A DNA stretch of 64,000 bases. Origin: Capsulimonadaceae bacterium (lineage in GTDB: Bacteria; Armatimonadota; Armatimonadia; Armatimonadales; Capsulimonadaceae). A program made the translations under genes and the position numbers. A model generated the notes under the pieces. The model ran no database searches. It was not told the DNA's origin and saw only the letters and a list, made by a program, of their open reading frames with translations. Below are positions 41,913 through 62,995 of the stretch, piece after piece. How positions within the stretch are numbered: the stretch's first letter is position 1; each line of letters opens with the position of its first letter. Where the stretch lies: positions 1-64,000 of the forward strand of contig JARLGU010000012.1 of NCBI GenBank assembly GCA_031292625.1. Direction: 5' to 3'.

Positions 41913-42335
41913 TTATTCCGGCTGGGTTTGTCCGGGAAAGACGGTGAAACGCCGGTGTCCAAGGGGGTACGTGCCGGTCATTATGTCGACGAAATAAACG
42001 CCAAGCTCCGGGAGGGAGAGGCCTATGATCTCGACGGAGATATCGAGGACGCTTACCGGATCGGCAAACGACGCTTCCGAATCGAAGCGCATCAGGTCCG
42101 CGCCGCTCGGGGTTCGAACGATAAACGAGATTGGCCACGTTCCACGTCCATCGGTGAGCGACGCCATTACGAACATGCGGTGATGGCTTGTCGGAACCTG
42201 CGCGACGACGATGCTATTGAATAAGCTCACCAAAGTCTTGTTATTGGTGCGCTTGTCTTCGATGATCTCGTTGCAGATGATCACGGAGATGCAGCTTGGC
42301 GGATTGGTCGGCGGCGTCGCGGCAAAGTCACTCAT
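41913..42335 (-). CDS. DUF6941-like beta-sandwich protein (chromosomal copy)
   Basis: The 140-residue protein has the pattern I recall for DUF6941: CNEIIEDKRTNNKTLVSLFNSI, a P..HHRMFVMASLTDG strand pair, then SVEIIGLSLPELGVYFVDI near the C-terminus. It is a clear paralogue of the protein encoded within the IS1595-like element (62106-62519): ICN[DE][IV]IEDK.TNNKTLV.LFN is shared almost unbroken. The function of the family is unknown. ATG 42335 is chosen; an in-frame extension to 42431 lacks similarity to the paralogue. It is divergent from hisG. Confidence 0.75.
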   Translation of the reverse strand: MSDFAATPPTNPPSCISVIICNEIIEDKRTNNKTLVSLFNSIVVAQVPTSHHRMFVMASLTDGRGTWPISFIVRTPSGADLMRFDSEASFADPVSVLDISVEIIGLSLPELGVYFVDIMTGTYPLGHRRFTVFPGQTQPE

Positions 42336-42542
42336 GAGAGTCCATTCGTGCGCTTGGCCGTGAAATCCTTCCCGTTCGACGCGCAAAGGGGCGCCGTCCG
42401 AACGGATGGTCAGCGAGGGGCAGGTTGACACGAGCGCCCTGCGAGCCCCATAATAATCCCGAAATTAGTGTAAGATGTCGCGTCCCGCGCTTGAATGGTC
42501 AGGCAGGTCGCACGGAGCGGTGTTCGCTCCAGGAGAACGCTT

Positions 42543-60366: not shown

Positions 60367-60464
60367 TCACGGAATTTTGACGTAACACGTGCAACCTTCG
60401 GTCAGATTCTTAGCTGACACCTTACGTATAACCCCTTCGTTCGGTCACCGAGAGGGTGCAAGAA

Positions 60465-60471
60465 AAATTGG
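60465..60471 (+). repeat. Left target-site duplication of the IS1595-like element
   Basis: AAAATTG directly precedes the left inverted repeat, and the same seven bases follow the right end at 62989-62995. With one more base each side it is 7 of 8, near the 8-bp duplications typical of IS1595. Confidence 0.7.
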
Positions 60472-60483
60472 GCGATTACATAC

Positions 60484-60512
60484 TTGGCACATAATCCCTA
60501 TGGCGGTATGAT
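60484..60512 (+). promoter_or_regulatory. Transposase promoter overlapping the left inverted repeat
   Basis: TTGGCA (60484-60489) and TATGAT (60507-60512) are 17 nt apart, and the -35 lies inside the inverted repeat. The -10 ends 6 nt before GTG 60519, so the transposase mRNA would be leaderless. Confidence 0.65.
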
Positions 60513-60518
60513 GTAGAC

Positions 60519-61490
60519 GTGGAAAGCGAATACGCAACCCCAAAGACGCTACAGGAAGTAATCCTGCATTTTTCGAGCGACGATGTTTGTCACGAGTTCA
60601 TGACTAACATGCGTTGGCCGAACGGCGTAGCCTGCCCGCGATGCGGTGATACTGCGATTGGTTTCGTTAAGACGCGCCGTATATGGAACTGCAAGGGCTG
60701 CAAGAAACAGTTCACCGTCAAGGTCGGTACGATCTATCGAGGATAGGCCGCTGAGTTTCAGACCTGGCTACCCGCCTTCTGGCTGCTTGCCAATGCCAAG
60801 AATGGGATAAGCTCCTGCGAACTCGCGCGCTCGCTCAACGTGACGCAAAAGACCGCTTGGTTCACGCTGCATCGCATCCGCACCGTACTAGAGACCGGGA
60901 GCGTCGAAAAGCTCTCGGGCGAAGTCGAAGCGGATGAAACCTACGTCGGCGGCAAGGTCAGGAACGACAAGCGCCGGATCGGCAAGGTCAAAGCTGGACG
61001 CGGCGATAGTGGCAAGACGGTCGTCTTCGGCGTCCTAGAACGAGCAGAACACGAGTTTGAAGCCTCCCGAGTGCAGGCAACCGTCGTACCTTCGGCAAAG
61101 AAGACGGTTCTAAGCAAAGAGATCCGCGAACGCAACAGTGAGTTTACAACGCTCTACACGGACTCGTGGAAGGGCTATCGCGGGCTATCCTCTGAGTACC
61201 TGCATCAGTTCGTAGACCACACCGTAATCTATGCAATGGGGCAGGCTCACACCAACGGGATCGAGAACTTCTGGTCACTCCTGAAGCGCGGCTTGAACGG
61301 GACGCCTATCAGCGTCGAACCGTTCCATCTGAAACGGTACATCGCCGAACTCGTCACGAACAACCACGACGACGACGATGCAGGCCGGTTCTTGGTAGCC
61401 CTTGAAAAAACAGAAGGCCGTCGGCTCACGTATGATGAGCTGACGACCTCGTACGAAGCGTACTATGACATGATGCTACCGCGTGAGTAG
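60519..61490 (+). pseudogene. IS1595-family (ISXO2-like) transposase with one in-frame amber codon
   Basis: The frame runs for 323 codons apart from a single TAG at 60744-60746. The N-terminal part has a zinc ribbon (CPRCGD...CKGCKKQF). After the TAG the same frame continues with the ISXO2-type sequence WLPAFWLLANAKNGISS and VTQKTAWFTLHRIR. The catalytic motifs are all present: EADETYVGG, YTDSWKGY and HTNGIENFWSLLKRG. Only the one codon breaks it, so it is either recently inactivated or read through. The TAG sits just after the VGTIYRG region that joins the zinc ribbon to the catalytic domain. Confidence 0.85.
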
Positions 61491-61495
61491 CATTA

Positions 61496-61849
61496 CTAGA
61501 AAGACATTTGCGGGTTTATCACCCTAATAATCGCCCGGCTTGCCTTGTCGGTCGCCCCCTGCGTCAACTCGCATGCCCTATAAGCTATCAAACTCTCTGC
61601 CACTGAGAAGAGATACGATGGTCGCAAGTAGCTCTGACGATTGAGACTGCCATTCTGCATGTCTGCCATGTCAAGAGAGATAATGTATGGGTCTGGTGCA
61701 TTCTGGGCAGATATAAGGCAAAGTAGATAATCCGTAGACGACTTGAAGCTCCACGACGCTACAACTAGAGCGGGTCGTAGTTTTGAGCCGGACATGACAG
61801 AGAAAGGAAAGGGAACGACCACGATGTCGCCCCTTACAAATCTTGCCAA
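61496..61849 (-). CDS. MazF/PemK-like toxin
   Basis: The 117-residue protein has the MazF/PemK-like barrel opening FVRGDIVVVPFPFSVMSG and SKLRPALVVASW. The later strands DYLLCLISAQ and SLNRQSYLRPSYLFSVAESLI also fit. These toxins are mRNA endoribonucleases. The TTG start lies within the last codons of the antitoxin-like gene (16-nt overlap), the order antitoxin-then-toxin usual for type II systems. It is the last gene of the IS passenger operon and ends 5 nt from the transposase stop. Confidence 0.8.
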   Translation of the reverse strand: MARFVRGDIVVVPFPFSVMSGSKLRPALVVASWSFKSSTDYLLCLISAQNAPDPYIISLDMADMQNGSLNRQSYLRPSYLFSVAESLIAYRACELTQGATDKASRAIIRVINPQMSF

Positions 61850-62109
61850 GCCTCATCCTCCGCAGGATCATTCCAAATTTTACCTAACGTTTCCTCAGAG
61901 GCAAACATGGTGATCTGGGTTTCACACTCGTCATCTGCACCCAGAAACTGCACCGTCTTCCAAGCGTACGTGATAGAGGACAACTGCTCGATCGGCGCTT
62001 CAAACGCACCTGCATTGGTCGCTACGGGCAAAAAGGATATAGACGGCGATGATATTTCGCGATGATCGTTAGTTTCTATATAAGGCGCGCCGCAGATTTT
62101 TATTGTCAT
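61834..62109 (-). CDS. Antitoxin-like protein of the IS passenger operon
   Basis: This 91-residue protein overlaps the toxin gene by 16 nt and the DUF6941-like gene by 4 nt (ATGA). Its acidic, Trp-rich C-terminus (EETLGKIWNDPAEDEAWQDL) is the kind of tail that antitoxins use to wrap MazF-type toxins. The N-terminal part is not a recognisable AbrB or MetJ fold, so DNA binding is uncertain. The antitoxin call rests on position and the C-terminus. Confidence 0.65.
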   Translation of the reverse strand: MTIKICGAPYIETNDHREISSPSISFLPVATNAGAFEAPIEQLSSITYAWKTVQFLGADDECETQITMFASEETLGKIWNDPAEDEAWQDL

Positions 62110-62519
62110 AATTTGGGCATCCCTTGGGCCTGCATTACTGTAAACTTACGCGACATCAAATATTTGTCGCCAGATGTCAATTCGATCCTGTATTCGCCAA
62201 ATTCCGGTAAAGGGAACCCAAGTAGCTGCACGACAATATCCAGCACTTCCAGCGGGTTATTGCCGTTGGCTTCACCATTGGCACTTAGAACCTCTGAACC
62301 ACTTGGCCCTAATACCGAAAAACGAACCGGCACCTTGCTTCGTATATTCGTTATGGAAGCAACCAAACACATCTTGGGGTGCCTGGCGGGTACACTTTGC
62401 GCCGTGATGCCATTGAACAGGTTAACCAACGTCTTGTTGTTGGTTGTCTTGTCTTCAATGACATCATTGCAGATCGCCAATAGAACGCATAACGGAGAAT
62501 CAACGATGCTATCGTTCAT
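62106..62519 (-). CDS. DUF6941-like protein carried by the IS element
   Basis: The 137-residue protein is closely similar to the chromosomal protein at 41913-42335. It shares AICNDVIEDKTTNNKTLVNLF, P..HP.M.LVASIT, VQLLGFPLPEFGEYRIELTSG, and a C-terminal RKFTV. Its ATG overlaps the stop of the small upstream frame by one base (TAATG), has AAGGA 9 nt upstream, and its stop overlaps the next ATG as ATGA. The function is unknown. Being inside a toxin-antitoxin operon suggests a link to the toxin, as a chaperone or third component. Confidence 0.78.
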   Translation of the reverse strand: MNDSIVDSPLCVLLAICNDVIEDKTTNNKTLVNLFNGITAQSVPARHPKMCLVASITNIRSKVPVRFSVLGPSGSEVLSANGEANGNNPLEVLDIVVQLLGFPLPEFGEYRIELTSGDKYLMSRKFTVMQAQGMPKL

Positions 62520-62695
62520 TAACTTGGGTCCTTGCGCAATCCGCCGACTTTCTCTTTGTCAGCTCGAACCCGCGACGGACCAGCATTAATGGCTTTACGG
62601 ACAAGCGATTCAAATCGCTTCCACGTCTCGGATGGATTCGCCGCGATCTTGGGATCTGGTTTGGCTACCTGATCGGCCATACGACACGCTTTCAT
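62519..62695 (-). CDS. Small hypothetical protein, first in the IS passenger operon
   Basis: This basic peptide of 58 residues or fewer contains NPSETWKRFESLVRKAINAG followed by a Lys/Arg-rich tail. This looks like small conserved proteins with a RFE.LV+ helix that I have seen before toxin-antitoxin-like genes, but I cannot name the family. The stop overlaps the DUF6941-like ATG by one base. ATG 62695 or 62680 or a TTG at 62707 could be the start; none has a good Shine-Dalgarno. Confidence 0.5.
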   Translation of the reverse strand: MKACRMADQVAKPDPKIAANPSETWKRFESLVRKAINAGPSRVRADKEKVGGLRKDPS

Positions 62696-62802
62696 GGGAG
62701 GACACAAACGAAGACGAAGCTAGCTCACGGTCGCTCGTGTCCTTTAGCGCGACCGACGCAGCAGGCATCAAAGATCCGCGGATGCGCGAATCACACGGCC
62801 AC

Positions 62803-62831
62803 ATTATAGCGCGACATGCGATACAAGTCAA
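62803..62831 (-). promoter_or_regulatory. Promoter of the IS passenger operon
   Basis: On the minus strand TTGACT (62831-62826) and TATAAT (62808-62803) are exactly 17 nt apart, a near-consensus promoter inside the element. Transcription would start near 62796. Confidence 0.8.
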
Positions 62832-62988
62832 TCAAAATGATAAACTGAGCTTATTATCGGTTTTCGTCACCTACATCTTTAATGCTCTCCGAAGCCCGTT
62901 CGTTCCGTATATCCACCCTTCACCTCCAATATGCCTTGCGAACATCCGTGCGTAAACGCTAACCTAGTGTGTCAGTTATATAATCGCC

Positions 62989-62995
62989 AAAATTG
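62989..62995 (+). repeat. Right target-site duplication of the IS1595-like element
   Basis: AAAATTG directly follows the right inverted repeat and equals 60465-60471. Confidence 0.7.

Follow-up and report, generated by a model that had tools for sequence, protein, structure and literature searches.

The segment at 60471-62988 of the 64,000-nt stretch of DNA analysed here (the window; contig JARLGU010000012.1 of a Capsulimonadaceae bacterium) is very probably an IS1595-family insertion sequence (IS) with a passenger operon, a so-called transporter IS, of which sister copies carry other cargo. Matched ends enclose a transposase gene and, convergent to it, an operon of four coupled genes for a small open reading frame (ORF) product, a DUF6941 protein, an antitoxin-like protein of 91 amino acids (aa) and a PemK/MazF-like toxin. 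It belongs to a family of cargo-swapping elements that has so far received little description. Coordinates are positions in the window; loci, genomes and contigs are numbered with L, G and C, respectively, G000 being the organism's own genome and WIN the window copy.

The element in the window and its sister copy

The left end GGCGATTACATACTTGGCACAT (60471-60492, plus strand) and the reverse-complemented right end GGCGATTATATAACTGACACAC (62967-62988, minus strand) are identical at 17 of 22 positions, and at 17 of the first 21, as stated in a preliminary description of the segment, which had placed the start at 60472 instead of 60471. The heptamer AAAATTG on either flank, likewise recorded there, is found at 60464-60470 and 62989-62995 and is assigned as the target duplication. 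IS1595 elements produce target duplications of 8 bp, and the second copy of the element in the same genome, on contig C13 (locus L007), has an exact 8-bp duplication, GAAATTAA; a loss of one nucleotide at the left junction of the window copy is therefore likely, judging from the two sequences. The left inverted repeat is homologous to the left end of the C13 copy and contains the -35 box of the transposase promoter. The right inverted repeat matches the end pattern exactly. As its duplication is one out of register, the window copy lies outside the scan for ends and duplications described below, and its case rests on the identity to the C13 copy, which amounts to 90% over 30 nt at the right end and 90.6% over 1,018 bp from the left end through the transposase.

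The transposase gene (60519-61490, plus strand) had been assigned to the IS1595 family, and both Pfam domains agree with this (PF12760, a Zn-ribbon, 60.8 bits; PF12762, DDE_Tnp_IS1595, 116.2 bits), but the frame is not intact. Compared with the intact 324-aa transposase of the C13 copy (NF033547, 190.3 bits), the gene has gained 1 nt and, close by, lost 1 nt, with an in-frame TAG (60744-60746) separating the two changes, and 6 nt are missing farther on. From these lesions, the transposase of the window copy is judged to be dead, while the ends are kept. Hence, the element could move only in trans, for example by means of the 93% identical C13 transposase. The transposase promoter is predicted at 60484-60512 (TTGGCA-17-TATGAT, plus strand), and its counterpart in the C13 copy matches the consensus at 12/12 positions.

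Besides the two outer blocks, the copies share a segment of 130 bp that includes the start of the small ORF (62613-62742, 84% identity), despite the different cargo downstream of it. In the C13 copy the cargo consists of DUF3467, a 172-aa protein and a HEPN-like protein, the latter with a HEPN score of 17.3 bits, under the cut-off of 22. From the limits of the shared blocks, the exchanged segment would begin at the stop codon of the transposase gene and end near codon 33 of the small ORF, with the 130-bp block marking its right-hand limit. The comparison of the operon between copies, proposed in the preliminary description, thus reveals shared ends, transposase and small-ORF start, but also a difference in cargo that had been missed.

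We propose that a cargo slot is framed by two conserved blocks, the left inverted repeat with the transposase on one side and the right inverted repeat with the promoter and the small-ORF start on the other. The transposase would act on both ends and mobilise everything between them. Since identity starts and ends within these blocks, cargo may be swapped by recombination in the conserved transposase and in the promoter/small-ORF block. In the window copy the slot holds a type II-like toxin-antitoxin operon, and in the sister elements other toxin-antitoxin or restriction modules.

Several observations weigh against this interpretation. The flanking repeat of the window copy is 7 bp long, not 8. 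An empty target site is not demonstrable, the right-hand neighbour not being located beside the dehydrogenase gene in relatives. The 91-aa protein matches no Pfam antitoxin family, a PADLOC search with the cargo of both own-genome copies gave one chance-level match and nothing else, and most of the DUF6941 genes examined stand alone, which indicates another function there. An IS1595 element could also have landed beside a resident chromosomal toxin-antitoxin operon, with the right inverted repeat arising by chance, and a four-gene operon of the same order does exist without an IS elsewhere (L151, see below). However, the identity of the right end to that of the C13 copy, the presence of a flanking repeat and the sister copy with the same layout and other cargo render this explanation very improbable. 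The passenger reading of the preliminary description is instead supported by the C13 copy and by 15 further elements with ends, exact 8-bp duplications and cargo. In the six relatives of the same family, the flanking dehydrogenase gene is present, and neither transposase nor DUF6941 nor MazF was found beside it (within ~1.5 kb or up to the contig end).

A search of the own genome with the end pattern, aimed at solo ends and non-autonomous copies, returned only the four ends of the two elements and three sites that belong to a different repeat. The three sites (G000 C19:5947-5968, C24:37126-37147 and C62:19250-19271) are near-identical to each other, GGCRATTTGATATRTTACACAC, and unlike the element ends, and possibly belong to another repeat family. 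An inner end at 61528-61535 (TAATCGCC) was set aside, as it comprises a match of only ~8 bp inside the toxin gene and has no flanking duplication.

Related elements and probable exchange of their cargo

Relatives of the transposase are present in 25 of the 291 genomes of the phylum. Wide regions around them were scanned for matched ends and a target duplication, which were combined into a joint score. This yielded 16 elements (the C13 copy plus 15 from 14 other genomes) in which the two ends agree at 17-22 of 22 positions and an exact 8-bp duplication is present. They score 33-38, whereas 60 shuffled controls reached 30 at most, with a median of 25; L097, L100 and L113 nearly qualify. All 16 are 1.9-4.4 kb long, ~2-4 times the length of the transposase gene, and contain extra ORFs, so that the search for other copies suggested in the preliminary description has led to elements that all carry cargo. 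A plasmid search with the transposase returned relatives that were all below 60% identity.

The cargo often consists of toxin-antitoxin or restriction-modification genes. Toxin- and antitoxin-type Pfam families are PemK, ParE_like, PIN, PIN_10/DUF5615 with DUF433, SocA/Panacea and HTH_3. Those of restriction type are an EcoRI-type methylase with GmrSD/HNH (L095, 2214-4524), a C5 methylase with HNH (L104, 3232-4492; both with the transposase on the plus strand) and an N6/N4 methylase, while DUF4145, DUF6932 and DUF7689 were found in addition. Enclosed by IS1595 ends with exact 8-bp duplications, the methylase and nuclease pairs of L095 and L104 look like restriction-modification systems. A protein of ~290 aa that we read as HEPN-like recurs downstream of four IS1595 transposases (L092, L097, L101 and L102), sometimes with an HTH_3 antitoxin-like gene. 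L093 (2634-4174) and L113 (2372-3848; both with the transposase on the plus strand) share a two-gene cargo with identities of 32% and 33%, although their end types differ and their transposases have 55% and 34% identity, respectively, to the C13 transposase; this points to exchange between lineages. The pair encodes a protein of ~310-326 aa and one of 185 aa, of which the latter appears to be membrane-bound. It has no informative Pfam match and is a candidate for an uncharacterised toxin-antitoxin or defence pair.

The operon in the window would either stabilise the element by addiction, penalising its loss, as proposed for modules borne by Tn3-family transposons (PMC7157771), or protect the host from phages, and the data are compatible with both. 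In line with the preliminary description, it may thus stabilise the insertion. The cargo may also have been selected for phage defence by abortive infection or restriction, the elements being small defence shuttles and not addiction devices. The pairs of methylase and HNH/GmrSD nuclease, the HEPN-like proteins and the Panacea antitoxins of other elements are consistent with this, whereas the cargo of the two own-genome copies lacks PADLOC matches and no defence domain can be recognised in several cargo proteins; selection for defence is thus conceivable, but we do not consider it likely.

In addition to cargo, the elements encode small companion proteins. In most elements with the end type of the window copy (group A), an ORF of 50-70 aa follows the transposase, with the consensus ..F....K.ILKVPKxEIDRRxAE.. 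(alignment A2). A profile of this alignment identified 24 places in the 291 genomes, 22 of which are within 2 kb of an IS1595 transposase, with distances judged by eye; among the places left out of profile building, 8 of 10 are near such a transposase. The small ORFs of the window and C13 copies match A2 weakly (hhalign E-value 0.001 with a probability of 21%; hidden Markov model E-values 0.01 and 0.11), which suggests that they may be related to this family. In the second end type, group B (L113, L115, L117, L118 and L121), the motif F-x2-[DA]-L-x2-A-S-[RQ] is present in all five elements, in otherwise different cargo proteins. All of its 5 matches in 229,928 residues lie inside these five, and 251,583 control residues contain no match, although the count overstates the significance, the motif having been defined post hoc from these sequences. 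A plasmid search with the small companion protein gave no match. Companion proteins of this kind could serve as markers for finding more such elements.

In the widest form of our proposal, each lineage keeps its own companion peptide during cargo exchange (in group A the small protein beside the transposase, in group B the motif carried by the cargo operon), and this peptide couples the cargo to the transposon as a regulator of transposition or as a generic toxin-binding tag. The elements would then form a distinct class of transposons with exchangeable cargo, spreading by toxin or restriction addiction, and DUF6941 would act together with antitoxin and toxin, making the window operon a system of three components. 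Taken as a whole, this scheme is speculative and rather unlikely to hold in every part.

Passenger-bearing IS1595 elements have been known as transporter ISs since 2009 (Siguier, Gagnevin and Chandler 2009, cited in PMC3129680), as the preliminary description had noted. The elements described here resemble them in the transposase family, the inverted repeats, the 8-bp duplication (in the sister copies) and the location of the passengers inside the IS. They differ from them in a passenger that varies by copy and is often of toxin-antitoxin or restriction type, in the retained small protein and, for the window copy, in the broken transposase. Tn3-family transposons also carry toxin-antitoxin modules of several families (Lima-Mendez et al. 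2020, PMC7157771). As in our elements, unrelated families, in Tn3 those of ParE, Gp49, PIN and HEPN, were gained repeatedly at a fixed place. The Tn3 modules adjoin a resolvase gene and a res site, whereas no resolvase gene is present in the window element and the cargo is convergent to the transposase; unlike the Tn3 modules, the cargo also includes restriction genes, DUF6941 and DUF3467. For Panacea systems, toxin-antitoxin genes have been noted beside transposases (PMC8832971).

A search of the open-access literature by titles and abstracts turned up no paper on IS1595 elements with toxin-antitoxin cargo. Nor did this literature yield a description of swapping toxin-antitoxin or restriction cargo in IS1595, of the companion peptides or of DUF6941 in toxin operons; no paper in it names DUF6941 or couples DUF3467 with toxin-antitoxin genes. 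Three features hence appear to be new, namely the systematic exchange of cargo, the small companion protein that is retained and the association with DUF6941. The elements bear on the question of what makes toxin-antitoxin pairs so widespread and so ready to exchange partners. They represent a minimal vehicle of 2-4 kb with a single transposase, which is observed with the same ends and different toxin-antitoxin or restriction modules, both within one genome and across the phylum. This makes the exchange directly traceable, and the notion that addiction helps a transposon becomes testable with a simple element.

The toxin-antitoxin-like operon and its DUF6941 protein

The four genes of the window operon run on the minus strand from 62680 to 61496. 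They are preceded by a predicted sigma-70 promoter at 62831-62803, TTGACT-17-TATAAT, which matches the consensus at 11 of 12 positions. The promoter and the three overlaps between the genes, TAATG (62517-62521), ATGA (62106-62109) and 16 nt (61834-61849), are as the preliminary description had given them. The first gene is the small ORF (62519-62680, minus strand; 53 aa), whose first ~33 codons are common to the C13 copy. Its most likely start is 62680, giving 54 codons including the stop, because this start is shared with the sister copy. It is followed on the same strand by the DUF6941 gene (62106-62519; 137 aa; PF22091, 60.9 bits, cut-off 27), the 91-aa antitoxin-like gene (61834-62109) and the toxin gene (61496-61849; 117 aa), which matches PF02452 with 31.4 bits (cut-off 23.1) and the MazF-like phrog_1936. 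A sequence search of the PDB with the toxin gave no match, and NCBIfam returned nothing above its cut-offs for the cargo proteins of both own-genome copies.

The assignment as a toxin-antitoxin-like operon is supported by the PemK_toxin domain. The overlapping upstream gene is a candidate for the cognate antitoxin gene; its C-terminal motif, SEETLGKIWNDPAEDEAWQDL, is conserved before related toxins, while its product matches no known antitoxin family. Antitoxins ahead of this PemK family have a common C-terminal segment, SE..L..W....ED.AW..L, and unrelated N-termini, and in most loci their genes overlap the start of the toxin gene. The MazF-like toxin, by analogy an RNase, may be restrained by this segment of the 91-aa protein. 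Structure prediction of that protein without an alignment was uninformative, with a predicted local distance difference test (pLDDT) score of 36. The order of a small antitoxin gene and an overlapping PemK/MazF toxin gene is that of the type II systems MazEF and PemIK. Unlike in these systems, no MazE/AbrB domain is present in the antitoxin-like protein, and two further genes, the small ORF and DUF6941, lie ahead of its gene in the operon.

DUF6941 occurs in 110 of the 291 genomes of the phylum, and the association with toxins provides a first functional lead for this family. The four-gene set is not confined to the element, as the same order is found in L151 (G156, from another family), a chromosomal operon of a small ORF, DUF6941, a 74-aa antitoxin and PemK without the ends or a transposase nearby. 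DUF6941 also heads other toxin operons. It is followed by an antitoxin and PemK in L195 and, with a truncated toxin, in L215, and by a 109-aa gene and a PIN gene in L183. Among the other IS1595 elements, its gene is followed in L121 by those of a 75-aa protein and a ParE-like toxin, and in L117 and L118 by pairs without a recognised family; DUF3467 takes its place in the C13 copy and in L115. Hence, the operon is an independent unit that was picked up by the element.

The model of the DUF6941 protein (pLDDT 84.7) is an all-beta sandwich of the immunoglobulin (Ig)-like type. Its top structural matches are UNC119, RhoGDI, PA1606 and the C-terminal domain of Wzt, with TM-scores of ~0.4-0.6, and in this model the likeness is at the level of the fold only. 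A SecB-type chaperone was discarded as the likeliest reading of DUF6941, as SecB is absent from the 50 best structural matches and the model is all-beta and Ig-like. In this respect DUF6941 also departs from toxin-antitoxin-chaperone (TAC) systems, which the operon resembles in having a third gene. Of the two roles raised in the preliminary description, that of a chaperone is therefore not supported, whereas that of a third component of the toxin-antitoxin operon is plausible from its recurrence beside toxin genes. DUF6941 might supply what the non-conserved N-terminus of the antitoxin lacks, be it dimerisation, stability or control of the operon.

DUF6941 and the small ORF may also be independent hitchhikers that merely share a transcript with a functional unit of the 91-aa protein and MazF. 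The stand-alone DUF6941 genes noted above would fit, as would the related PemK toxins that have an antitoxin and no DUF6941 (L193, L197 and L199-L202), and we regard such hitchhiking as quite possible, if somewhat short of probable. However, DUF6941 lies directly upstream of toxin operons in the window copy, L151, L195, L215, L121 and L183, in several of them with translational coupling, and in L194 (1331-1513; G110:C404) an N-terminal fragment of DUF6941 continues in frame into the C-terminal segment of the PemK antitoxin. Furthermore, an N-terminal domain of a type recognisable by eye is frequent in antitoxins that occur without DUF6941, and those associated with DUF6941 seem to lack one.

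Two further DUF6941 genes were noted. One is located in the window itself, at 41913-42431 on the minus strand; it is 43% identical to that of the element and stands alone, with IS1595 and toxin genes absent nearby. The other, in L184 (3509-4593, reversed locus; G112:C96), overlaps a gene for 89 aa, and a weak HicB-like gene lies on the opposite side; this may be another DUF6941-associated toxin pair. Finally, a third IS1595 transposase of the own genome (L009, 954-3492; G000:C59) is intact and 49% identical. Its right end was not found; the copy adjoins a convergent DUF433-like/DUF5615-PIN pair and a small ORF of the companion type.

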